Of a DNA stretch of 64,000 nt, positions 14,024 to 28,443 are shown piece after piece. A model generated the notes under the pieces. That model searched no databases and was not told the DNA's origin. It saw nothing but the letters and a program-made list of their open reading frames with translations. The DNA is from a virus: positions 62,001 to 126,000 of IMG/VR virus record IMGVR_UViG_3300043570_001980; one strand, 5' to 3'. Each line of letters opens with the position of its first letter. The first letter of the stretch is position 1. A program made the translations under genes and the position numbers.

Positions 14024-15016
14024 ATGAAAAAACTAGTCATTATGCCCGGTGGTTTCCACCCCTTTCACGCAGGCCATAAAGCTCTGTATGATGCGGCCCA
14101 AGCGGCTTTCCCCAGCGCCGATGTTTACATTGCTGCCACAGCAGACACCTCAACAAGACCTTTTCCTTTTGCAGTCAAGCAAAAGCTGGCAAAATTAGCT
14201 GGCATTCCTGCACACAGATTTATTCAAGTCAAAAATCCTTTCCGTGCCAATGAAATTACACAACATTACGATCCCAGCACTACACAGCTGATTTTTGTAC
14301 GTAGTGAAAAAGATCGTAACGAACAGCCCGTGCCCGGTGGTGTAAAAAAGGATGGTAGTGCTGGCTACTTACAACCATACAAGCGCACAGGCCTACAGCC
14401 AATGACTCAGCATGCTTACATAGCATATTTGCCTGTGGTACAGTTTGGTTCAGGTATGACCAGTGCCACAGAAATTCGTGCCAAATGGCCTGCAATGTCA
14501 CCTGAACAAAAAGCCACATTGGTTAACTCATTATATCCACAGACCCAGGGCAACGAAAAATTAACCAATGTAACAATTAAACTAATTGATGCAGGCATGG
14601 GCAGTGATGTGAAAGAAGCACTACAAGGTCCAGCCTTTGGTGTTGGTGCAGGCGGATTAAATGCAGGAATGCCAATGCCAAATGGTCCAGATAAAGAAGT
14701 TGATGAAGCTACTCTGGTCAATGATCCCGACGAAGGAATTCAAATTCGCCCTACTGGAGGTCTTGGTACCTGGGATGAAGGTAGTCTTAAGCAGAGTTTA
14801 GTACGACAACTGGTTGAGTTAGCAGAAATGCTCAAAGTTGGCAACTATCGCGGAGTGGAACATCTAATGTACAAAGCTGGTGCTATGCAAAGTAAAGTCC
14901 AAGCTCTGGCCCGATTAGAAGATTTTACTGACAAACAAGGAAGACGACCTGTTGCACGTGGGCGAGAAATTGACATTGGCGAAAACAATGACTACGTCAA
15001 TGAAACAAACAAGTAA
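14024..15016 (+). CDS. HxGH nucleotidyltransferase with extended C-terminal region
   Basis: 330 residues. Residues 1-165 are a nucleotidyltransferase: VIMPGGFHPFHAGHKALYDA (HxGH at 15-18), FVRSEKDRNE, and SATEIRAKWP equivalent to ISxTxxR. The C-terminal half is unlike known enzymes of this class: Gly-rich GVGAGGLNAGMPMP, then EVDEATLVNDPDEG, then a helical stretch LVRQLVELAEMLKVGNYRGV. The VKE|A (198) and VDE|A (228) peptides resemble the cleavage-type motifs in the downstream polyprotein genes, so this too may be packaged and trimmed. Substrate unknown. Confidence 0.7.
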   Translation: MKKLVIMPGGFHPFHAGHKALYDAAQAAFPSADVYIAATADTSTRPFPFAVKQKLAKLAGIPAHRFIQVKNPFRANEITQHYDPSTTQLIFVRSEKDRNEQPVPGGVKKDGSAGYLQPYKRTGLQPMTQHAYIAYLPVVQFGSGMTSATEIRAKWPAMSPEQKATLVNSLYPQTQGNEKLTNVTIKLIDAGMGSDVKEALQGPAFGVGAGGLNAGMPMPNGPDKEVDEATLVNDPDEGIQIRPTGGLGTWDEGSLKQSLVRQLVELAEMLKVGNYRGVEHLMYKAGAMQSKVQALARLEDFTDKQGRRPVARGREIDIGENNDYVNETNK

Positions 15017-16162: not shown

Positions 16163-16171
16163 TCAAAGCGG

Positions 16172-16177
16172 TAAATA
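16172..16177 (+). promoter_or_regulatory. candidate late promoter (GTAAATATA) of polyprotein locus
   Basis: TAAATA six bases before ATG 16184, no Shine-Dalgarno between them; T4-like spacing would start the transcript at the ATG. Confidence 0.45.
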
Positions 16178-16183
16178 TAGTTT

Positions 16184-18772
16184 ATGAACATTCATGAACT
16201 AGATTCCTATCGTTTAAGCAACGCAATCAAGTTTAACGACAAGTTAAACCCACGCATTTGGGGAGAGGACGAACATCTTCTCCCTGATGTTCGTGACCAC
16301 TTATTGGCAATTGCGGATGACTTTCGCGAATTCCTTGGCCTAACAGACCTTGAACTAAAAGATGTTACAATATCTGGTTCAAACGCCGCCTACACATATA
16401 CACCACACAGCGACATTGATCTACACTTGGTAGTAGATTTACCCAGGGCCGATGCCAGCGACGTTTATCGTGAGCTGTTTGATGCTAAAAAATATCAGTA
16501 CAACGATCAACACAATTTTAAAATTGGCGGTTACGATGTTGAGTTGTATGTACAGAATGCCAATCAACCGCCGGTGAGCCAAGGCGAGTATTCGGTGTTG
16601 AACAATGACTGGCTACAAGTTCCCAAACGTCAACAAGCTGTGGTTGATGACATGAGCACACGTAGCAAGTACGAAGATCTAGGACACAGAATTGAGTCAG
16701 CCATTGCTGATGGTGATAGACAGCGCATGGAGTCGCTGGCTAAAAAGATACGTGAAATGCGCACAACCGGCCTGGCAAAGACTGGAGAATTTGGTCCAGA
16801 AAATCTAGCATTTAAACTGTTGAGAGCCAGTGGCTTGATTGATCGACTGCGTGAAGCCAGACTTGCCGCAAAAGATCATGAACTAAGTTTACAAGAGCGC
16901 AAGAAAAAGAAAGTACGCTACGGATATGGTGGGTACTGGATGCCAGGATTCTCGTTTGGCGACGGCGAGGGCGGCGATGGTGGTGGTGGCGAAAGTGTAC
17001 AAGAAAACACAGAATCCCCAGACATCAATCAAGACATTAGGCAAGTACTACAACCATTCATTGATAGTTGTGTTGAGTATCTTGGAATTGAACAAGCCCC
17101 AAAAATTATATTAAAACGTGACCCAGAATGGACACGTAGAAACGGCACATTTGGTCAATTTGATCCCGAAACACGTTCAGTCACACTGGCAGTGAGTGGC
17201 CGTCATGTGCTAGATATTTTGCGTACTCTAGCACATGAGCTCACACACTCTCGTCAAAACGAACTAGCTGACATGCCCGTGGATGCAGGCGAAACAGGAT
17301 CCCCTTACGAAGACGAAGCCAATGCCAAAGCAGGCCAAATTATGCGACACTGGGTTGATCAGTATCCTGAATTCTTCAAAGATGCGCCACTAGAGGAATC
17401 TTTAAAAGATAAATTGGCTGCCGCTGCCGCTGCCGCTTGCATAGCTGGCACGCCCGGGTGTGCTACCACACAAAGCATGTCCACCGCTGATACATTGAAA
17501 GGTATTCAAACTGTTGGCCGAACTGCACAAACAGTAAAGCAAATGGGTAGCGCAGGCGCAAAAGAAGAATTAATACAACAACTAAAGAATGAACTGCGTA
17601 GACAACGTGGGCAGTTGCCAGAAACAGTCACTGACGAAGATTATGATCCCAACGGAAAACCACCCGGTCCAGAATTCAAACCCACCATGCCAGCAGGCAC
17701 AGTCAAAGTAGATGTCAGCGATGTCTACGATTGGTACAAGCTAGGACAACACATTAGTGATTTAAAAGGGCTGGGTCAGCATGACTTTGGAAGTGGTCCT
17801 CCTAGTACTATTATGGCATTTGGCAGCGAAGAAGAAGAACACAAGTATATCGACGCATTAAAGAAAACAGGATTGACCACAACTGACATTGATCCTGTTG
17901 ACCCCAATCGACCCAAAGGCATGCCTCGCCAGAAGACAGATCCTACATACAATGTCAACGAAGCATTTGATCAACCTTATCCACTACTTCGATGGGAAAA
18001 GGGTGACTTTGGTGATGTAGACGCAATCGCACGATTAGATGACGGAACTTTTCTAAGTATCATGTTCAACAAGGGATTTAGTAAAGATTCAAAAGAGGAA
18101 GCATGGAGTGTTGAGTTTTATAGAAACAACAGCCAAGAAGTCACAGGTGAAGGTGATTCTCAACGAGTATTTGCCACTGTGTTAAGTGCTATACAAACAT
18201 TTATTAAAAAGTACAAGCCTAATAGAATGACCTTTTCGGCCTCAAAAGAAGTTGAACCGGGACAAAACTCACAAAGCAGAGCCAGACTCTACGATAGTTT
18301 GGTTCAGCGTTATGCCAGAGCTTGGGGTTATAGAGCTTTCCGTGCAGATACCGGCAACAAAGTCATCTACGAACTAAGCAGAAGACAACCTGTAGTAGCA
18401 GAAGGTCCATTTGTTCAAAGAATTGTTCATCCTAATAAAATCAACATCTACGTGCGAGCAGGCAAAAAACCCAAACTGGTTGCAACCAATGTGTCTTATA
18501 ATCTATTAGACAAATACATTGACAAAGTGGTAGACAAATATCCACAGTTTAGGCCCACTGATTTTTCTTTTCAATCTGCTGATGAAAAAGTAATAGCAGA
18601 AGCCACCGGATACATTCCTGTCAACGACAAAGAAGCTCGTGATCCACGCTACAGCATGGCCATCACACAAGACATCAAGCCTGGCGAAGTGCAACGTCAA
18701 GCCAAAAAAATGGGCTGGCGCACCACTGCCGCTGGAACACCACCTACATTAAAGACATCAGGAAGAATGTAA
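16184..18772 (+). CDS. modular internal-protein-type polyprotein: nucleotidyltransferase + zinc peptidase + phage modules
   Basis: 862 residues in several modules. About 1-240: nucleotidyltransferase fold, with GSNAAYTYTPHSDIDLH giving GS and DxD (D77, D79). About 280-400: metallopeptidase-like, AHELTHSRQNEL (HExxH at 351-355) with a possible third ligand E378 in YEDEANAK. About 406-590: starts with Ala-rich KDKLAAAAAAACIAG, then unknown. About 594-740: conserved phage module (RLYDSLVQRYARAWGYRAF). 741-806 and 807-862: two short cassettes. Boundaries coincide with E274|N (VQE), E405|S (LEE), E593|A (VNE), E740|G (VAE), E806|A (IAE), all fitting prohead-protease-type sites. The N-terminus MNIHELDSYR loosely resembles the tag of the following genes. 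Inferred: packaged, cleaved, possibly injected. Confidence 0.7.
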   Translation: MNIHELDSYRLSNAIKFNDKLNPRIWGEDEHLLPDVRDHLLAIADDFREFLGLTDLELKDVTISGSNAAYTYTPHSDIDLHLVVDLPRADASDVYRELFDAKKYQYNDQHNFKIGGYDVELYVQNANQPPVSQGEYSVLNNDWLQVPKRQQAVVDDMSTRSKYEDLGHRIESAIADGDRQRMESLAKKIREMRTTGLAKTGEFGPENLAFKLLRASGLIDRLREARLAAKDHELSLQERKKKKVRYGYGGYWMPGFSFGDGEGGDGGGGESVQENTESPDINQDIRQVLQPFIDSCVEYLGIEQAPKIILKRDPEWTRRNGTFGQFDPETRSVTLAVSGRHVLDILRTLAHELTHSRQNELADMPVDAGETGSPYEDEANAKAGQIMRHWVDQYPEFFKDAPLEESLKDKLAAAAAAACIAGTPGCATTQSMSTADTLKGIQTVGRTAQTVKQMGSAGAKEELIQQLKNELRRQRGQLPETVTDEDYDPNGKPPGPEFKPTMPAGTVKVDVSDVYDWYKLGQHISDLKGLGQHDFGSGPPSTIMAFGSEEEEHKYIDALKKTGLTTTDIDPVDPNRPKGMPRQKTDPTYNVNEAFDQPYPLLRWEKGDFGDVDAIARLDDGTFLSIMFNKGFSKDSKEEAWSVEFYRNNSQEVTGEGDSQRVFATVLSAIQTFIKKYKPNRMTFSASKEVEPGQNSQSRARLYDSLVQRYARAWGYRAFRADTGNKVIYELSRRQPVVAEGPFVQRIVHPNKINIYVRAGKKPKLVATNVSYNLLDKYIDKVVDKYPQFRPTDFSFQSADEKVIAEATGYIPVNDKEARDPRYSMAITQDIKPGEVQRQAKKMGWRTTAAGTPPTLKTSGRM

Positions 18773-20220
18773 TGAGAGCAACAGAGTTTATAGTTGAAAA
18801 CGCAGATCAAGCCGCAGTCAGTGCTTTGCAAAAAAAGCATGGCTGGTCTACGGGCACAACAGTCAATGGAGATCTTTACTTTACTTGGCAAGGGCTTACT
18901 TATGTGTTTTATGGTGAGCGTATGCGTATCAACGTCCCAAACACTGACCGCTCTATATCAGTTGTGTGGGGCAAGAAACCTGATTGGCAAGGCCGAGGCA
19001 ATGATGAAATTAGTTTTGCACAAGCAGTACAACGAAAAATTCTAAAATTTGACTTGTCAATTTGGCAACAATTGGACCGTGGTCAAATCAATGATAATCA
19101 AGCCCTGCAAAAATTCAAGGCCGAAAATGAACGGCAGGCTAGAGAAGCTCTTGCACAGGATACTACGGAAGGTCGAGAAAAGTTTAACCAGGCTGTGATG
19201 AAACCCGGTTTTGAGTTCAGTCAAGAAATCAACGGTGTCACGTATGAAGTAACAAATGATGAGGGCCCGGGTCCTGTGGTCACTGTAACTGACAAGAACA
19301 AAGAAGTAATTGCTCAAGCGGCATTCTGGAAGCACAAAACTCGTCCAGGATTAGAAAGCCTAAACACTTACGTTGAGCCCGAGTGGCAAGGTCAAGGCAT
19401 TGCCGCAAACATGTATGCTGTGATGCGCATGTTGGGTGCTAACATATCACCGTCTACCATTCAAACAGATGACGGCCAGGCCATGTGGGCCAAGTGGAGT
19501 AAACAAGGTGATGCTAAACATCTAAAGAATCTAAATCCCAAAATCAAAGAGCAAACAGTAACAGAAGGCAAGTTGAGTGTGGATGTACCCAACGAAGAAT
19601 GGTTGCAGGACAAGATTGACTATGCCAAGAGCAAAGGGCGTAACAGCTACGGTGTTCCTTACATGGGCAGTACCACTGCTGGGGTTGTTGGAACTCCACC
19701 TAGAGTGCGTGTAATGCGACTAGCTTCGTTGCCTGGTATGCGCAACGAACAAATGAATGTGCGCAAAAATGATCTAAAGTGGTTAATGGATTACATGGAA
19801 CGCACAGGTAAGTTGCCGCCCATGGGCAGTAATCCCAACGAGGAATACCTGCCCTACATCATGGTGGCCTACAATGGTGAAGCCTGGGTCAACGAAGGCA
19901 ATCATCGTATCATGGCTGCCTACAGATTAAACTGGCCCGACATGCCCATTGAAATACGTTACTTTGATGGTGGTGAAAGAATTGAATCAGGGCCAATGGC
20001 TCCGGGAAAGATTGGGCTGGGTACACCAGTGGCAGAATCTCATGAACAATGTCCTGAGTGTGGCGGAGCAATGTTCAGTGAATTAATGATCAACGAAAAA
20101 CAAGATGCCTGTTACTACAAAGTTAAAAGCCGTTACAAAGTATGGCCTAGTGCTTATGCCAGTGGTGCACTGGTGCAATGTCGTAAAAAAGGTGCGGCCA
20201 ATTGGGGGAACAAAAAATGA
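18772..20220 (+). CDS. modular internal-protein-type polyprotein: GNAT-like + ParB-like modules
   Basis: 482 residues. The N-terminus MRATEFIVE|NADQ is strikingly like the T4 internal-protein tag MKTYQEFIAE|A. Modules: unknown 10-130; GNAT-like about 150-245 (YVEPEWQGQGIAANMYAVMR, acetyl-CoA loop QGQGIA); ParB/sulfiredoxin-like about 266-415 (WVNEGNHRIMAAYRLNWP); a CxxC piece (EQCPECGGAMF); and a C-terminal cassette (YYKVKSRYKVWPSAYASGAL). Junctions: E9|N, E265|G (TVTE), E422|S (PVAE), E442|K (INE); TTE133|G is weaker. Start ATG directly overlaps the previous stop. Predicted to be carried in the head; activities inferred from motifs only. Confidence 0.68.
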   Translation: MRATEFIVENADQAAVSALQKKHGWSTGTTVNGDLYFTWQGLTYVFYGERMRINVPNTDRSISVVWGKKPDWQGRGNDEISFAQAVQRKILKFDLSIWQQLDRGQINDNQALQKFKAENERQAREALAQDTTEGREKFNQAVMKPGFEFSQEINGVTYEVTNDEGPGPVVTVTDKNKEVIAQAAFWKHKTRPGLESLNTYVEPEWQGQGIAANMYAVMRMLGANISPSTIQTDDGQAMWAKWSKQGDAKHLKNLNPKIKEQTVTEGKLSVDVPNEEWLQDKIDYAKSKGRNSYGVPYMGSTTAGVVGTPPRVRVMRLASLPGMRNEQMNVRKNDLKWLMDYMERTGKLPPMGSNPNEEYLPYIMVAYNGEAWVNEGNHRIMAAYRLNWPDMPIEIRYFDGGERIESGPMAPGKIGLGTPVAESHEQCPECGGAMFSELMINEKQDACYYKVKSRYKVWPSAYASGALVQCRKKGAANWGNKK

Positions 20221-21731
20221 GATATCGTGAAATATTAGAAGCCTGCTGGAAAGGCTATCACAAAGAAGGCATGAAAACCATGTTTGGCAAACGCTATCCC
20301 AACTGCGTGAAAAATACCAACGAAGAACTAGAAGAAGATCTACGCAAATGGTTCAAAGAGAAGTGGGTGCGTTTTGGTCCAGATGGCAAGATTCGTGGAG
20401 ATTGTGCCAGGGGTGATGATAGTGAAGGCAAGCCAAAATGTTTGCCACAAAGCAAGGCACACGGTCTAGGTAAAAAGGGTCGTGCAAGTGCGGCAAGTCG
20501 TAAGCGCAGACAAGATCCCAATCCAGAGCGTAGTGGTCCAGCAATCAATGTCAACACCAAGAAAAAATCAAACGAAGGTGCAGTTGGAGTTGGTTGGTCT
20601 CACAAGCCCGAAGCAATTGACAAGATTCATTCTTGGCAAAATTCAGAGACAGGTACAGATTCAAGAATGTTTCAGGGTTACAAAATGAAGTTCACTCCCA
20701 ATGGGATGTTTATCTACAAAGGTGGCGATGTGGTACATAAGCAGCCTGGAGATTTTTCAGACCCGACCAATAAAGACATCATGGCGGCTAAGAGAAGAAT
20801 AACAATGTTGATTAATAAAACGCAAGGCGTGGCGGAAGGCTCTGAGCAACAGTACGCCGTTACCATTGACGCAATCAATCACGGTGTGTTGGCACCTGTA
20901 ACAGTTGTTGCCGGCAGTTCAGAAGAAGCAAAACAAAAGGCCATTGCTGGTGTTAAAGCATCAATGATCAAGCGTGGATATGAATTAATGGTGCGTAGTG
21001 TATCAGCCAAGCCCGAACAAGGTGTGGCGGAAAACATGGACCACAGCAAAGATGGTCGCGCTGTGGAAGAACTCAAGGCAGCATTGATAGATCGCAAACA
21101 ACGATTACAGTCTGCCAGTGATGATCAAGTGTACGATAGCATTGACAAGATCATGACACGTATTGCAAAAACTCACAGCATCAGTGGACAGAAACTGCAT
21201 GACCTGTGGGTGGACCGGTACAAACAAGTACCTGATACATGGATCATGAACGAAGATGCCAGTGGTATAGATTTTGACATGCAGTTTGACGATGACACCG
21301 GGTCGTTTGCAACAGTGACCGCTCGAGCACAAGGCCGCACACTAGGTTCGGTCAAGTTCTTTATGGACGGAGATACCTTGGAAGCAGACATGGTAGAAGT
21401 GGATGACCGGTATCGTGGACAAGGCATTGCGGCGGCCATGTATGACTATGCCAAGAGCCAAGGTTATACAATAGAAAAAAGTTCGAATCTAACACCCGAT
21501 GGTGATCACTTCTGGAACAAAAATCGCGGAGAAGAAACTGTTTGGGAACAAGGCATGGCAGAGAACTTTGCCGACGGTAAGAATCCTGGACGCAAAGGCC
21601 TAGCCAAACGTGTGGGTGTGAACTGCAAACAACCTGTTGCCAAACTGCGTAGTATTGCTGCCAATTCATCAGGCGAACGACAACGAATGGCACATTGGTG
21701 TGCCAACATGAAATCAGGAAAGAAAAAATGA
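20217..21731 (+). CDS. modular internal-protein-type polyprotein: Cys-rich + GNAT-like modules
   Basis: 504 residues. ATG 20217 (ATGA overlap) is chosen over 20202 because it gives MRYREILE|ACWKG, matching the tag of its neighbours. Modules: 9-120 Cys/Arg-rich (FGKRYPNCVKNTNEELEE; KGRASAASRKRR); 121-207; 208-272; 273-346 helical; about 347-449 GNAT-like (VDDRYRGQGIAAAMYDYAKS); 450-504 basic cassette (FADGKNPGRKGLAKRVGVNC ... RQRMAHWCANM). Junctions: E8|A, E120|G (SNE), E207|G (GVAE), E272|N (GVAE), E449|N (GMAE). The GVAEG seams are also similar at DNA level to those at 26670 and 26985. Inferred packaged polyprotein. Confidence 0.68.
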   Translation: MRYREILEACWKGYHKEGMKTMFGKRYPNCVKNTNEELEEDLRKWFKEKWVRFGPDGKIRGDCARGDDSEGKPKCLPQSKAHGLGKKGRASAASRKRRQDPNPERSGPAINVNTKKKSNEGAVGVGWSHKPEAIDKIHSWQNSETGTDSRMFQGYKMKFTPNGMFIYKGGDVVHKQPGDFSDPTNKDIMAAKRRITMLINKTQGVAEGSEQQYAVTIDAINHGVLAPVTVVAGSSEEAKQKAIAGVKASMIKRGYELMVRSVSAKPEQGVAENMDHSKDGRAVEELKAALIDRKQRLQSASDDQVYDSIDKIMTRIAKTHSISGQKLHDLWVDRYKQVPDTWIMNEDASGIDFDMQFDDDTGSFATVTARAQGRTLGSVKFFMDGDTLEADMVEVDDRYRGQGIAAAMYDYAKSQGYTIEKSSNLTPDGDHFWNKNRGEETVWEQGMAENFADGKNPGRKGLAKRVGVNCKQPVAKLRSIAANSSGERQRMAHWCANMKSGKKK

Positions 21732-22132
21732 GAAATTTTATTAATCTACTGGAAGCTATAGAAAAAGGCTGCCCGCTTGCTACACAAAGCATTGAACTAA
21801 ATTTAAAAAATCGTCAAAAAGCCATAGACGAATACCATTATGGACCTCTCAATCCCAACGAGCCCAACGATGAATATTGGGAAGAATTAGCAGACAAATG
21901 GAACACAAATGACATTAAATCAGTAAAACAAAACCGCTGTGGGAATTGTGCAGCCTTTGACATTTCTGAATCCATGCAAGATTGTATTGCAAAAGGCATT
22001 GGTGAGGAACCAGGGTCAGATCCACACGATACAATAGATGCTGGGCAACTAGGATATTGTAAGTTTTTGAAATTTAAATGTGCCGCCAAACGAACTTGCG
22101 ATGCCTGGGTAGAAGGCGGCCCTGTTACATGA
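21728..22132 (+). CDS. tagged small internal-protein candidate
   Basis: 134 residues from ATG 21728 (ATGA overlap with the previous stop), giving MRNFINLLE|AIEKGCPL, the same short N-terminal tag type. The rest is acidic with a Cys-rich C-terminal half (KQNRCGNCAAFDIS; GYCKFLKFKCAAKRTCDAW) holding seven cysteines, possibly a metal site. No internal GVAE motif, so only the N-terminal tag would be removed. Unknown activity. Confidence 0.6.
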   Translation: MRNFINLLEAIEKGCPLATQSIELNLKNRQKAIDEYHYGPLNPNEPNDEYWEELADKWNTNDIKSVKQNRCGNCAAFDISESMQDCIAKGIGEEPGSDPHDTIDAGQLGYCKFLKFKCAAKRTCDAWVEGGPVT

Positions 22133-22151
22133 AATTTGGTCGTAAAAAATA

Positions 22152-22241
22152 ATGTCAGCATCTTCAAAATCTATTTTATTAGTAGGATGCTTGTTTAGCG
22201 ATTATTGCGGATTTGGAGAGATCATTGGAAATCATAAGTAA
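22152..22241 (+). CDS. possible 29-residue peptide
   Basis: Reads MSASSKSILLVGCLFSDYCG and ends NHK. It fills most of the 143-base gap between two tagged genes but has no convincing ribosome site; may be chance. The rest of the gap shows no clear promoter. Confidence 0.2.
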   Translation: MSASSKSILLVGCLFSDYCGFGEIIGNHK

Positions 22242-22275
22242 TCAATAAAGATTGCCTTTGCAAATAGGAAAAAAA

Positions 22276-23769
22276 ATGAGATTTAACGAACTTCAAGAAA
22301 CTACCCTAGGCGGATTTAAAGTAAAACCGTTGCATATTGAGAACACCGGTGTTAGTGAAGAGCTTGAGCATAACTTTGACAAACACATAGTTGCGGTCAC
22401 TGTCAGTGATCCTCACAGTTCAGCTGTGACACAACGTCAAGAACTAAAACAACGCAAGGCCAAGGTACGTGCATTAGATCGTGAATCTGCTGTTAATACT
22501 GCTGTCAATTGGTATCGTAAACAAGGCTACAAAGTACACGATCATCACTACATTGGCACAGATAACGGTATTGCCGAAGGCTCTGTAACTAAAAAGCCGC
22601 AACCCTATAATGACCCCAATTGGTCCAAAAACTTACCTAAAGAAAAATTAGATGCATTGGCTGGACCAAGATATAAAAAAGATAAAAAAGACAAAGGTGT
22701 AGCCGAAGCAATCAAGTTAAATGCGCCACAACGCACAATACCACGTGATGAATTGCAGGGCTATGCTGACCGTATCAAGACTGGCACCAAAACCAAACGT
22801 GACAAGTTTAGCCCTATCATTCACGGCAGCAATATCAAGGCCATTACCAAAGATGATGAGAACACTGAGTGGGACTTGGATGATTTGTCCAAGCAGATTA
22901 CCACACGTCCCCGGGCCATACTTGGCACTAATGCCAAAATGGAAAAGTCTAAAACTGAAGGCGAAATCATTTATGACCTGACATTGCCTGCACTATCAGG
23001 TATTGTTGTGGATGAAGATACTGGCGACTTTGTGGAAATTACCACATGCCCGGGTGCTGGTGCTTGCCAACTATTCTGTTATGCTAGAAAAGGTGGCTAT
23101 GTTATGTTCCCTGCTAGCAGTATGAGTGCGGCGCAGGCACTAAACTTCCTGGTCAATGACCCTGAAGGTTATACTGCCAGAGTCAATCAAGAAATCAAAA
23201 CAATCAAAGCCAAAACAGACAAAGCTGGTGTACAGTTAGTTGTTCGTTGGCACGATGCTGGTGATTTCTTCTCCAAGGAGTATTTGGATCTAGCATATGG
23301 TGTTGCCCAATCCAATCCTGATGTGCAGTTTTATGCCTACACCAAGATGGGCGATGTTGCCACAGGTGCCGCACCTGCTAACTTTACCATGAACTTTTCA
23401 TCAGGCAGCAAGCGTGGTGAAGAAAAGAAAGTGGAATTCTACAAACAACAAAACCCTGGTGCCACAGTCAAGCAAGGTGTTACTGTTCCCAAGGACATGT
23501 TCTTTGATCTAATTGCACGTAAAGGCACTAGCTTGATCAAAGACGCCAAGGGTCGCACACAATTTGCCAGCCCCGAAGCACTTGACACATTTAAGCAACG
23601 TATTGCACAACAGTACAAGGTTGCTCCTGATTCAATTATTACCTACGATCAAATGCTAGCAACTCCAGTGGGCACAGAGCCCAAGTGGAATGTTATTGTA
23701 CAACCGGGTGCTGGTGACCGTGCAGCCAATCGCAAGGATGTAATTGACAGTTACTTGATGTTCCACTGA
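22276..23769 (+). CDS. tagged polyprotein ending in a Gp88-like Fe-S/radical-SAM-type domain
   Basis: 497 residues from ATG 22276, chosen because it follows an A-rich/AGGAA ribosome site and gives MRFNELQE|TTLGG. Residues 9-101 and 102-144 are two short modules ending NGIAE101|G and KGVAE144|A. Residues 145-497 match the mycobacteriophage Gene-product-88 family: ITTCPGAGACQLFCYARKGG with C258, C264, C268, then LVVRWHDAGDFFSKEYLDLA. The cysteine triplet suggests an Fe-S cluster. Function of the family is unsettled. Packaging is inferred from tag and sites. Confidence 0.68.
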   Translation: MRFNELQETTLGGFKVKPLHIENTGVSEELEHNFDKHIVAVTVSDPHSSAVTQRQELKQRKAKVRALDRESAVNTAVNWYRKQGYKVHDHHYIGTDNGIAEGSVTKKPQPYNDPNWSKNLPKEKLDALAGPRYKKDKKDKGVAEAIKLNAPQRTIPRDELQGYADRIKTGTKTKRDKFSPIIHGSNIKAITKDDENTEWDLDDLSKQITTRPRAILGTNAKMEKSKTEGEIIYDLTLPALSGIVVDEDTGDFVEITTCPGAGACQLFCYARKGGYVMFPASSMSAAQALNFLVNDPEGYTARVNQEIKTIKAKTDKAGVQLVVRWHDAGDFFSKEYLDLAYGVAQSNPDVQFYAYTKMGDVATGAAPANFTMNFSSGSKRGEEKKVEFYKQQNPGATVKQGVTVPKDMFFDLIARKGTSLIKDAKGRTQFASPEALDTFKQRIAQQYKVAPDSIITYDQMLATPVGTEPKWNVIVQPGAGDRAANRKDVIDSYLMFH

Positions 23770-24298: not shown

Positions 24299-24452
24299 AA
24301 TAACTGAAAGTATGGGCGGCACATGCTCAGGCGGTATTGCTACTGTGGCTCAACCAATGGGCGAAGTGATAACTAGGACTAAGAGTACTAAACCGGCTAA
24401 ATATGCTAATAGCGCACAAAAAATGGTGCCTGTAAAACCTAGGAAAAAATAA
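24285..24452 (+). CDS. small tagged protein
   Basis: 55 residues from ATG 24285: MRLREITE|SMGGTCSGGIA, an excellent copy of the locus's N-terminal tag, with GGAG upstream. The remainder is Gly/Ser then basic (TRTKSTKPAKYANSAQK, KPRKK), consistent with a DNA-associated capsid-interior peptide. The in-frame start 60 bases upstream would hide the tag inside the protein and is rejected. Confidence 0.6.
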   Translation: MRLREITESMGGTCSGGIATVAQPMGEVITRTKSTKPAKYANSAQKMVPVKPRKK

Positions 24453-24892
24453 TGTTATCGGACGATTTAAAGACCTTGCTGGCCACACAATATGCTTTGA
24501 GTATCAAAGCACAGAATTTTCACTGGAATGTGGAAGGTCCTGACTTTGCTCAATACCACGACTTCTTTGCCAACTTCTATGAAGAGGTTTACAGCGCAGT
24601 TGATCGAATCGCTGAATACATTCGCACCTTGCAAGAATACAGCCCGGGAAGTTTTGAGCGTTTTCAAGAACTGTCTATTATACAAGGACAAACAAAGATC
24701 CCACGTGCTCGATTGATGATTGAAGAATTGCTGTCAGACAACGGCGCCCTAATTGATCTGTTGAATCAGACATTTGTCAGTGCTGAACAAGAAAACAACC
24801 AGGGCATTGCCAACTTCATTGCTGAACGCTTGGACGCACAGGCCAAGCATGGCTGGATGCTGAGAAGTTTCTTAAAAGGCGACCGGGCATGA
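24452..24892 (+). CDS. dps: Dps/ferritin-like protein
   Basis: 146 residues. Typical Dps helices: SIKAQNFHWNVEGPDFAQYH (H24, H36) and YSAVDRIAEYIRTL (D51, E55) supply the inter-subunit ferroxidase residues, followed by a conserved long helix ending DAQAKHGWMLRSFLKGD. Dps dodecamers oxidise and store iron with peroxide and can coat DNA. It lies within the tagged-protein locus but lacks the tag. Linked in theme with AhpC/AhpD at 60.9-62 kb. Confidence 0.88.
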   Translation: MLSDDLKTLLATQYALSIKAQNFHWNVEGPDFAQYHDFFANFYEEVYSAVDRIAEYIRTLQEYSPGSFERFQELSIIQGQTKIPRARLMIEELLSDNGALIDLLNQTFVSAEQENNQGIANFIAERLDAQAKHGWMLRSFLKGDRA

Positions 24893-25482
24893 GCGATTTA
24901 AAAGATATTTTAGCAAAGCTAGATAAAATTGCCGAGGGAGACATTACTCCCGTGAATGTTAAATCTGGACTTAATAAACAACAAAGGCGAGTACCTGAAC
25001 TTCCTGCGCTGTTCAAGCCAAGAAGTATCAATGTATTAACCAATAAAACCGATCCTGAGCATCCTACCAAGGGATACTTTGTTGGCTCAGAAAGTGTTGA
25101 ACAAGACGAAGATCAAGAAACCATCGCCGAAGTGGTCACATCCGAAGATGTAGTCAGCACAGTGAAGAAAAAACTAGGCGATTACCTAGCTGACCTTTCA
25201 AAAGAAATCAAGTCAGACTCTGATCTCAAGGACAAGATTCCACAAGAAGTTGATCAAATTGGTTCTTCAGTTAGAACTATTACCACAGACGACGGTCAAG
25301 AAATTAAAATCCACGGCAACGAGGATGATGGTTTCAGAATTACAATTAAAAACAAACCACATAGTGCAAAGTTTGAATCACTCAAACATGCCGAGATGGC
25401 CTGCGAAATGTACTGCTCACGTCGTAGAGCACGTACTATGGAAACTTCACAGGCCACACCTGATTACCTGGATGAAGCATAA
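24889..25482 (+). CDS. conserved phage protein with cleavage-type motifs
   Basis: 197 residues. The N-terminal 16 residues end DKIAE16|GDITP, and a second motif ETIAE81|VVTSE follows, both of the locus's cleavage type. The C-terminal half contains RTITTDDGQEIKIHGNEDDG and AEMACEMYCSRRRARTM, a block I associate with marine T4-like phage proteins of unknown role. Acidic middle, basic end. Overlaps Dps and the next polyprotein gene (ATGA and TAATG). Probably capsid-internal or scaffold-related. Confidence 0.58.
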   Translation: MSDLKDILAKLDKIAEGDITPVNVKSGLNKQQRRVPELPALFKPRSINVLTNKTDPEHPTKGYFVGSESVEQDEDQETIAEVVTSEDVVSTVKKKLGDYLADLSKEIKSDSDLKDKIPQEVDQIGSSVRTITTDDGQEIKIHGNEDDGFRITIKNKPHSAKFESLKHAEMACEMYCSRRRARTMETSQATPDYLDEA

Positions 25483-27164
25483 TGAATCTCAATAACTTAT
25501 TCGAAGCTGCCAACCCGGCGCAACAAGCTGCCATTGCTATAGCAAAGAAAAAAGCTGGTGAAAAACCCAAGAACAAAGGCCTGACTGAATTTGCTCCACC
25601 CGGTGGGAACAACGGTGATTCGGGACGCTGGTACACAGATGACGAGCTGGCAGACATCATTGGTGATGATTGGTTTGAAGATTTTGATGTCAGCAACGAT
25701 GGATTTAACATTGATGCATACGGCGAAAAGGCCAAGAAGAATTTAGTGGGCTATGCCAACTCATGGTTTGATGACAAAGGTTACAATGTTAACGTAATGG
25801 GTGTAGAACATAATGATGTTGACCATGATTTAAAATGGTACATTGTTGGTAGTTTCCAGAATGATAATTTTGCAGGTAAAGATGTAGACGAAGGCTTGGG
25901 TTCCAAGTTAGCTGGATTAGGTCTTGCTGGAGCAATGGCTCTTGGCTCAGCAGGCGCCAATGCCAGAGTTACTCCTGATGGCCAAGGCGGTTTCACTGGC
26001 GGGCTAAAGCCAAGTACAACAGTGACAGCACCTGCTGATAATAAACCGGCCGCAGAAGCACCAAAAGGATTTAGCAAAGAATATCTACAAAAGGCAGCAG
26101 ACCCAAATAGATTTGGTAGATACATGATCAGTGTTGAAAAAGCACAAGAATTGCTGAAGAACATGCAAGAAGCTGTAGCGGAAGGTTCACAGCGAGTTGA
26201 TTCACTTGTGACCGACGCACTAAAAATAATGCAGGGTTCAGACGTAAATGATGCTGTACGAGCTCTAAAGACTGTGCTTGGAGATAGAGAATACAACGGC
26301 CGCCGTGGTCATTACAATTTCTATGTTCGACAACTGATGGATATGTATGGCCAGCAAGGTGTAACAGAAGCTGGTTACAGAAACTACGATGACAATCGCA
26401 CAGGTTTTGGTAAGAATTCACAAGCATATCGTGCTGATGGTGGTGCCAACGATGAAGATCACGAAAGCGATCGTCGCCGTGAACAACAAGTGCAGTCCGG
26501 TACATGGTACATTCGTCTCAATGGAAAAATCATCAAAGACAAACAAGGCAATCCTTATTCATTCCGCGGTAAGGCTGCCGCAAACAAAGCCGCACTAACA
26601 ATGCAGGCTAAACTGTTCAATCAGGGCAAAGAGTTTATGTTGACTACCAATCCCAACGATAACCCTCAAGGTGTGGCGGAAGGCTGGAAAGATGTTGTTG
26701 CAGGTAGTGCAATGGCATTAAGTTCACTAGGTGTTGGCGCTCAAACAATGCCAAGCATGAATGGTCAACAAGTAGAATTAGCAAACAAATATTTTCAGGT
26801 CTTAGTGCAACGAGCAAAAGAAGATGGTAGAGAATTAGACACAAGAACATTGAATGTGTTGAAGGCAAAGGCACAAGATGCGGCTGCACAAAAGATGCAA
26901 CAATCTAAGAAATCACAAACTAATTTTCCAAGTCAAGGCAGTGAGCGTAGAGTTTCTAAAGATATAGGTACTTTTGAATCGCAAGGCGTGGCAGAAGGCC
27001 CTGCTGTAGACGCATACATGGCAGGCAAGAGTCCGGCACTGGCTCACTTTGCTGATCAACTAGATAAGAGTACTGAAGTAAATTTTCAGAAAAACAAAGG
27101 TGTAGCGGAAGGTCAACGAAGCGGCTACGGTCGCGGCTACGCTAGTTATAAATCCAGCAAGTAA
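25482..27164 (+). CDS. modular internal-protein-type polyprotein with repeated GVAE|G seams
   Basis: 560 residues. The N-terminus MNLNNLFE|AANPAQQ fits the tag. Possible cleavage motifs: E8|A, LTE36|F, VDE137|G, AVAE234|G, GVTE296|A, GVAE400|G, GVAE505|G, GVAE543|G, giving peptides of about 17-105 residues. Two pieces begin with a charge-hydrophobic pattern like a signal peptide: 138-161 (KLAGLGLAGAMALGSAGANA) and 401-420 (WKDVVAGSAMALSSLGVGA). 297-400 contains a compact beta/alpha module (GTWYIRLNGKIIKDKQGNPY). No recognised enzyme. The repeated seams differ from anything expected in a single globular protein. Confidence 0.68.
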   Translation: MNLNNLFEAANPAQQAAIAIAKKKAGEKPKNKGLTEFAPPGGNNGDSGRWYTDDELADIIGDDWFEDFDVSNDGFNIDAYGEKAKKNLVGYANSWFDDKGYNVNVMGVEHNDVDHDLKWYIVGSFQNDNFAGKDVDEGLGSKLAGLGLAGAMALGSAGANARVTPDGQGGFTGGLKPSTTVTAPADNKPAAEAPKGFSKEYLQKAADPNRFGRYMISVEKAQELLKNMQEAVAEGSQRVDSLVTDALKIMQGSDVNDAVRALKTVLGDREYNGRRGHYNFYVRQLMDMYGQQGVTEAGYRNYDDNRTGFGKNSQAYRADGGANDEDHESDRRREQQVQSGTWYIRLNGKIIKDKQGNPYSFRGKAAANKAALTMQAKLFNQGKEFMLTTNPNDNPQGVAEGWKDVVAGSAMALSSLGVGAQTMPSMNGQQVELANKYFQVLVQRAKEDGRELDTRTLNVLKAKAQDAAAQKMQQSKKSQTNFPSQGSERRVSKDIGTFESQGVAEGPAVDAYMAGKSPALAHFADQLDKSTEVNFQKNKGVAEGQRSGYGRGYASYKSSK

Positions 27165-27249: not shown

Positions 27250-27372
27250 ATTATCAACTACTTTTTTTAAGAACACACCTTAGGACCGGTACTTGTTACC
27301 GTGGTGTAGGCGGCTGCTGCCTTGGACGGCCTGATTCGCTACCAGGAATCCAAAAGTGAGCATAATTACTAT

Positions 27373-28443
27373 ATGTCAAAATACAAACTAAATTGGATAC
27401 AAAAACCACTAGTACAATTTCCAGCAAAAAATTTTCAAAATCTTGTTTGTCTTAGTCCTTTTGTGGGCATGTGCATTGATACAGATGGTGGAATAACATT
27501 ATGTGGTTGTCAAGATTGGATGCCCTCCAAGGTTGGAAATTTATTAATCAATTCACTAGACGAAATATTGTCCAATGCTGGCAGTACCAATATACGTCAA
27601 AGCATCATCAACGGAACCTACGACTTTTGCAATGAAAACACCTGTGGAGTTTTAAAAAGTGATCTACTTAATGTTAAAGAAAATGTAGGCGATGATATTA
27701 AGCCCTTGCTTCTTGATGCATCTCGTTACATTATGCCCAAAGAGATTTGGGTATCCGGCGATCGCACCTGTAATCTCAGTTGCCCAAGTTGTCGAACGGA
27801 AATTATAAAAAACAATGATGCACAGACCGAACATCTAGAACACCTAGGGCAAACGCTAAAATCAAATCTGTTTTGTACACCCACTGATCGACCAATTGTA
27901 CTACACGTGAGTACCAGTGGGGAACTGTTTGCTAGTCCAATGTTGTTGTCGTTTGTTAACACAATATCAACTGAGGATTTTCCAAACGTACAATTGGCTA
28001 TACAATCAAATGGTTTACTGGTACCAGAACGATGGCATCGACTCGAGAGCATGCAAGAAAAAGTAAAATCAATTACCATTACCACTGATGCCGCAAGGCC
28101 CGCTACATATGAAAAATTGCGTCGTGGTGGACGCTGGGACGACCTACAACATGCATTATTGTGGATCTCTGAAAAGAAAAAACAAAATGGCATGCTGTTT
28201 AAAATTCGAATGATTGTTCAAAAAGATAATTTTGAAGAAATGCTAGAATTTTACAACATGGGACAGGAACTGGGCGTAGATTTAGTCGAATATGGAAGAA
28301 TTGGAAATTGGGGTACATTTTCCAACGATGAATTTAAGTTGATTGATGTATTTAATCCCAAACACAGTCAATATCCACAAGCACAAGAAAACTTAGATCA
28401 AATAAAAAATCTTGACCGAGTAATTTTATTTGGCGGATTATAA
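27373..28443 (+). CDS. radical SAM protein with N-terminal SPASM-like Cys segment
   Basis: 356 residues from ATG 27373 (an in-frame TTG 51 bases upstream is unlikely). The N-terminal segment CIDTDGGITLCGCQDW looks like SPASM/Twitch auxiliary-cluster sequence; the radical SAM signature CxxxCxxC is in SGDRTCNLSCPSCRTE. Later IAIQSNGLLVP-type beta strands (VQLAIQSNGLL) and TITTDAARPATYEKLRRGG are typical SPASM-family core elements. The order (auxiliary Cys before the core) is reversed from most SPASM enzymes. Reaction unknown; could modify a peptide or glycan. Confidence 0.72.
   Translation: MSKYKLNWIQKPLVQFPAKNFQNLVCLSPFVGMCIDTDGGITLCGCQDWMPSKVGNLLINSLDEILSNAGSTNIRQSIINGTYDFCNENTCGVLKSDLLNVKENVGDDIKPLLLDASRYIMPKEIWVSGDRTCNLSCPSCRTEIIKNNDAQTEHLEHLGQTLKSNLFCTPTDRPIVLHVSTSGELFASPMLLSFVNTISTEDFPNVQLAIQSNGLLVPERWHRLESMQEKVKSITITTDAARPATYEKLRRGGRWDDLQHALLWISEKKKQNGMLFKIRMIVQKDNFEEMLEFYNMGQELGVDLVEYGRIGNWGTFSNDEFKLIDVFNPKHSQYPQAQENLDQIKNLDRVILFGGL

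Follow-up and report, generated by a model that had tools for sequence, protein, structure and literature searches.

The six open reading frames (ORFs) A–F of the T4-like virus genome IMGVR_UViG_3300043570_001980 probably encode capsid-targeted cargo polyproteins, from which the prohead protease would release individual proteins travelling with the DNA. The analysed stretch, hereafter the window, comprises 64,000 bases (bases 62001–126000 of the 341,990-base virus record), and coordinates refer to it unless stated otherwise. ORFs A–E occupy exactly 16184–23769, in agreement with the initial annotation of this region, and ORF F (25482–27164) groups with them; all six and their parts lie on the plus strand. 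Better-placed ATG starts were found for ORF C (20217), ORF D (21728) and ORF E (22276). The phage genome encodes a T4-type capsid protein Gp23 (PF07068, 1.8e-99) and a gp21-type prohead protease of the Peptidase_S77 family (PF03420, 6.4e-25), and 19 of the 23 related virus records also contain PF03420.

In the proposed scenario the polyproteins A–F would be expressed late, and the precursors would enter the prohead core via their leader. The S77-family (gp21-type) protease would then cut directly behind the Glu in the leader and in every internal seam between modules. The mini-proteins released in this way would be a nucleotidyltransferase (NTase), a zincin, two GNATs, a ParB/sulfiredoxin (Srx)-fold domain, a GP88 protein and small basic or Cys-rich modules, which would be retained inside the head together with the DNA, exit via the portal and, by analogy with T4, act early in the new host. 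For this phage, cleavage and packaging are inferred, as are injection and host targets, the last two by likeness to the T4 internal protein IPI and to Alt.

ORFs B–F start with leaders of about nine residues ending in [LIV]xE/ (the slash denotes the predicted cut), similar to the T4 capsid-targeting sequence (CTS). The leader reads MRATEFIVE/N in ORF B (18772–18798), MRYREILE/A in ORF C (20217–20240), MRNFINLLE/A in ORF D, MRFNELQE/T in ORF E and MNLNNLFE/A in ORF F. In related loci, the pattern M[RK]xx(x)[DEQN][FILWY][VILM]xE/ was detected at 203 distinct protein starts compared to 0.6 expected after shuffling, noting that it was picked after examples had been seen and that the relatives are not independent (218 ORFs form 120 groups). 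The consensus of the leader is MRAxEFIxE/.

The strongest single observation is that the same module occurs behind a leader or behind an internal seam in identical register. The ParB/Srx module follows either the leader in MRAQEFITE/GKLSVDVP or the seam in KKGVAE/GKLSVDVP. Similarly, the NFADGK module is preceded by a leader (MRAQEFVNE/NFADGK) or a seam (YNVDE/NFADGK), as is the AFD module (MRATEFITE/AFDKPY and TYNVNE/AFDQPY, respectively).

The seams of the form [VIL]xE/[GNAS] resemble the cleavage motif of T4 gp21, which cuts after L/I-X-E (PMC9026906). The placement of the enzyme-like modules between seams, as proposed in the initial annotation, is borne out by the distribution of the motif: GVAE[GNSA] occurs six times in the 3,039 amino acids (aa) of A–F and once in the remaining 100,108 aa (P=4e-9). 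Furthermore, 44% of the homology boundaries on A–F are located no more than 12 aa from a seam, compared to 16% at random positions (P=2e-4). The sole GVAE[GNSA] outside A–F (EQGVAEGT) belongs to an 820-aa ORF (genome 270618–273080) that weakly matches the virion structural family phrog_13484.

Module shuffling was followed across IMG/VR contigs and cyanophage records, whose 435 homologous ORFs show about 100 architectures (orders and combinations of modules). The motif [VILM]xE[GNASTKR] is present in 72% of 249 inter-module junctions versus 6.6% of in-module windows. The junctions are Gly/Lys/Glu-rich and the shuffling is exact there, as would be expected if the seams were flexible recombination linkers in uncut, unpackaged fusions of several domains. 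However, [VIL]xE[GNAS] was found in 99 of 165 non-redundant junctions, far above the 18.7 (maximum 36) in composition-preserving shuffles, and the signal is specific for Glu and for the spacing: exchanging Glu for Asp left 4 junctions (12 expected), and spacings of one residue more or less gave 17 (18 expected) and 12 (19 expected), respectively. The shuffles and both kinds of control rule out that the seams are a by-product of linker composition. Taking furthermore into account that leaders and seams are interchangeable and that a homologue and sister-module proteins are found in virions, the linker explanation seems highly unlikely. The motif is also kept in 23 of 24 distinct linkers between the NTase and the HExxH module while the linker sequence diverges.

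The initial annotation regarded a pre-loaded set of enzymes acting at the first moment of infection as plausible. Of this proposal, the T4-like leaders, the gp21-like sites, and a virion-detected homologue of the NTase together with sister proteins containing basic modules lend indirect support to packaging in the head. Injection, immediate action and possible effects on host defences or RNA polymerase are put forward by analogy with T4 IPI and Alt. The homologue of the NTase of ORF A is ORF156 of cyanophage S-CREM2 (126012–126725; tblastn E=1e-33), and the terminal module of ORF B has a tblastn homologue in S-CREM2 ORF160 (128342–129235), which has similar seams. Table 3 of the S-CREM2 study lists ORF154, ORF155, ORF156 and ORF160 in the virion proteome determined by mass spectrometry (MS) (PMC10665884). 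ORF154 is a cytidylyltransferase starting with MKNFSSFLTE/A. A further protein, QFG06285 of S-SCSM1, is built of KW, basic and CWKGY modules; its annotation as ‘virion protein’ is taken to reflect the MS detection of 45 S-SCSM1 proteins in virions given in the report on that phage (PMC9602691). The virion of S-SM1 contains the cytidylyltransferase T4-GC190 (PMC3037559). Just upstream lies a cytidylyltransferase/NMNAT-like gene (14024–15016, plus strand), an enzyme class found in cyanophage virions.

Several points weigh against capsid-targeted, protease-processed cargo. The phage is uncultured and known here from its genes alone, and its cut sites are predicted. About one quarter of the junctions is devoid of the motif, mostly before the basic and 2c modules. 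ORF A starts without a CTS-like leader, and in its relatives the NTase module is nearly always N-terminal without the motif; either the NTase module itself may be targeted or ORF A may enter the head by another route. The S-CREM2 virion detections are modest in the data tabulated there (6 peptides, 15% coverage; PMC10665884), and the S-SCSM1 authors caution in their report that non-structural proteins may be carry-over (PMC9602691). Moreover, the virion-detected homologues cover the NTase and the small basic modules, and none was found for the HExxH, GNAT, ParB or GP88 modules.

ORF A (16184–18772) encodes an 862-aa polyprotein. Its first module (16184–16903, A1–240) is predicted to be a Polbeta-type NTase, which is in line with the GS...DxD nucleotidyltransferase of the initial annotation: G65, D77, D79 and E120 are invariant in all 57 aligned members, so that G[GS] and the three carboxylates are present. 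Of 30 relatives, 29 are matched by PF01909, with a best E of 1.3e-5; the score of the window's own NTase lies just under the Pfam cut-off (E=0.00099). A Lys/Gly-rich linker (16904–17005) ending in the seam SVQE/N separates the NTase from module 2 (17006–17398, A275–405), which had been annotated as an HExxH peptidase. H351, E352, H355 and E376 of this module are found in 56 of 56 aligned members. Its AlphaFold model is confident (predicted local distance difference test, pLDDT, 87; predicted template modelling score, pTM, 0.82), and nearly all of the top 18 Foldseek matches are zincins or zincin-containing proteins, among them abylysin, jannalysin, IrrE/PprI, Wss1 and selecase (best E=2.6e-3, probability up to 1.00). 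According to the model, module 2 is a zincin with HExxH and a third ligand in a zincin fold, and a peptidase activity is predicted. It could be an effector or a helper in the processing of the string.

The presence of an HExxH module with intact residues leads to the polyvalent proteins (Iyer et al. 2017), whose enzyme types (MPTase, GNAT, Polbeta NTase, ParB) match those described here. If ORFs A–F belonged to this class, they would be delivered with the DNA and freed by their own HExxH module or remain uncut, the prohead protease having no role, and two of 40 relatives of the HExxH module do match MPTase-PolyVal, albeit weakly. However, none of ORFs B–F contains an HExxH module, although all five carry the same seams; moreover, the seam is T4 gp21-like in specificity and lies in the same register as the leader at the N-terminus. 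This reading seems unlikely.

In the remainder of ORF A, modules 2b and 2c (17399–17962) have no assigned function and end in the seam NVNE/A. They are followed by module 3 (17963–18403), which is similar to DUF6934/phrog_16075, ends in the seam VVAE/G and is found elsewhere behind leaders such as MRATEFITE/, and by modules 4 and 5 (18404–18769) with the seam VIAE/A between them. In Flavobacterium phage immuto, a 908-aa protein (L404:2276-4999) appears to be a similar string, uniting an NTase-like GS...DxD region with one NadR-like region and two HExxH motifs.

ORF B (18772–20220) encodes a 482-aa polyprotein with a GNAT module (19168–19566, B133–265), and ORF C (20217–21731) contains a GNAT region (21033–21563) between the seams VAE/N and MAE/N, with its core at about 21249–21563 (residues C~345–449). 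Both acetyltransferases predicted in the initial annotation hold: Pfam GNAT families match 26 of 26 aligned members, and the C module passes the PF00583 cut-off. A search with the GNAT profile against the PDB returned mostly GNATs (best RibT, 2e-4), and the acetyl-CoA loop (Q/R-x-x-G-x-A) is present within the family profile.

The GNAT module of ORF B is followed by the ParB/Srx-fold module (19567–20037, B266–422), which is flanked by the seams VTE/G and VAE/S. Its AlphaFold model is confident as well (pLDDT 91), and the Foldseek matches comprise sulfiredoxins (probability up to 1.00), Noc, ParB, SbnI and a free serine kinase (best E=9.7e-3). The motif E375-G-N-H-R379 is invariant in all 14 members; VNEG at B375 fits the seam motif but sits within this fold motif and was thus excluded from the seams. 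Of the ParB/sulfiredoxin-like domain announced in the initial annotation the fold is retained, and according to the model the likeness to both families is one of fold only. Since Pfam ParB_N (PF02195) gave no match for B266–422, we claim only the ParB fold. Sulfiredoxin catalysis needs the Cys of the GCHR motif. With Asn at the position of the catalytic Cys (GNHR in 14 of 14 members), sulfiredoxin chemistry was ruled out. The Foldseek E-values of the HExxH and ParB/Srx modules are weak (0.003–0.01), and both fold calls are made because the matches agree with the conservation of the motifs. The terminal Cys/Lys-rich (basic) module of ORF B (20038–20217) is common to cyanophage virion proteins.

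Besides its GNAT region, the polyprotein of ORF C contains the small basic modules CWKGY and KW (20241–20576) and a terminal module (NFADGK...MAHWCANMK; 21564–21728). Behind its leader, ORF D (21728–22132) has a Cys-rich module in which seven Cys are conserved. A high-potential iron-sulfur protein was considered for ORF D and rejected, as there was a resemblance of the motif only and no Pfam match. In ORF E (22276–23769) the leader and the seams IAE/G and VAE/A precede a GP88 module (22708–23766, E145–497) with C258, C264, C268 and RWHDAGDFFS. The Gp88-type domain of the initial annotation is clearly recovered by PF17338 (E=2e-32; 113.4 bits versus a gathering score of 24.4), and its three Cys, candidate ligands of a putative Fe-S cluster, are invariant in 30 of 30 members. 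No useful match came from searching the PDB by sequence with the HExxH, GP88 and ParB modules, and GP88 has no relative there. ORF F contains at least five clear seams (four VAE/G and one VTE/A), and profile searches recognised no enzyme in it. The modules of ORF F are likewise shuffled among relatives. Since the folds are real and the catalytic or signature residues are conserved, neither missing folds nor a loss of such residues among homologues speaks against the modules proposed in the initial annotation.

A putative late-promoter-like site, CGGTAAATATAG (16169–16180, plus strand), is located about 13 nucleotides before ORF A, and an identical string is found ahead of the portal gene. Upstream of ORFs, TAAATA-type sites amount to 35 in sense and 11 in antisense orientation. 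The strict T4 late promoter TATAAATA showed no enrichment at the cluster, where the looser TAAATA site is enriched. ORF A, the portal gene, the superoxide dismutase gene and several tail genes are each preceded by a late-promoter-like site of the (C/G)GTAAATA type.

A late-promoter-like site that may be common to these genes and the portal gene would also suit head-core or scaffold proteins acting only in the producing cell (assembly, DNA condensation), with the enzyme folds serving assembly. The small modules are basic like the T4 internal proteins (IPs), of which IPIII affects head assembly. Such a role is quite unlikely: unrelated folds have invariant catalytic residues, and even close relatives differ strongly in their set of modules, both of which fit effectors better than parts of the core assembly.

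The leader is not restricted to ORFs with the modules described above. A Pfam scan of 94 representative leader-bearing proteins identified GP88 (7), GNATs (about 5), class I chitinase/endolysin (3), NUDIX, ADP-ribosyltransferase (9.5e-13), M23 and M48 peptidases and amidoligase. On balance, we lean towards a general capsid-cargo code in T4-like jumbo phages, in which the leader MRAxEFIxE/ or the seam [VIL]xE/ would destine whatever protein or module bears it to be packaged and to be released by the prohead protease, and lineages would swap a large library of enzymes including superoxide dismutase, ADP-ribosyltransferase, NUDIX hydrolases and cell-wall hydrolases.

Elsewhere in the phage genome (genome 40944–41492), a gene for an Fe/Mn superoxide dismutase (PF02777, 2.2e-22) was detected with the leader MELRDHINLVE/A and a TAAATA site just upstream. 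This leader ends in L[VIL]E/ in all 12 relatives examined while its sequence has otherwise diverged. A small ORF within the cassette (24452–24892), which appears Dps/ferritin-like by eye, has no leader, and a Radical SAM/SPASM protein (27322–28443) adjoins the end of the cassette.

If the processing proposed for ORFs A–F holds true, phage heads would carry multi-enzyme kits derived from polyproteins, in much the way that some eukaryotic viruses produce their enzymes, and the packaged proteins of uncultured phages could be predicted from a short sequence code. Many ‘hypothetical’ genes of jumbo phages and cyanophages would thereby become candidates whose part in early takeover and counter-defence can be tested, and the leaders would provide a natural set with which to load T4-like capsids with proteins.

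Among open-licence papers, no description was found of polyproteins that combine several enzymes with seams for the prohead protease; the A–F system is therefore regarded as a new variant. In the giant phages phiKZ and SPN3US, a gp21-related protease cuts head proteins, among them ejection proteins, after Glu, but there the motif is A-X-E or S-X-E, propeptides are removed, and mosaics of enzyme modules are not described. The cyanophage proteins S-CREM2 ORF154/156/160 and S-SCSM1 QFG06285 share homologous NTase or basic modules, the CTS-like start on the cytidylyltransferase and their detection in, or annotation as part of, the virion. They differ in being mostly single- or small-module proteins, and the parts of the two reports used here do not discuss seams and leaders.

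In the polyvalent proteins the embedded metallopeptidase was proposed as a processing device (PMC5512222). ORFs A–F resemble them in combining several unrelated enzyme domains per polypeptide (NTase and zincin in A; GNAT and ParB/Srx in B) and in their presumed DNA-linked delivery, whereas their seams match the prohead protease and their leaders are of the T4 type. An HExxH module, which may help in processing, is found in A, and B–F share the seams without it. The T4 internal proteins and Alt have a leader of about ten residues, are cut by gp21 after the Glu in L/I-X-E and leave the head along with the DNA as basic proteins or enzymes (PMC9026906, PMC5694885). ORFs A–F share with IPI–III and Alt the short leader (B–F), the L/I/V-x-E sites and the gene for a gp21-family protease. 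However, T4 has one protein per gene with processing at the end, whereas several enzyme modules per gene, internal sites and swaps between leader and internal positions are found here. Relative to both the T4 internal proteins with Alt and the polyvalent proteins, the modular cargo with its proposed processing by the prohead protease appears to be a new variant.

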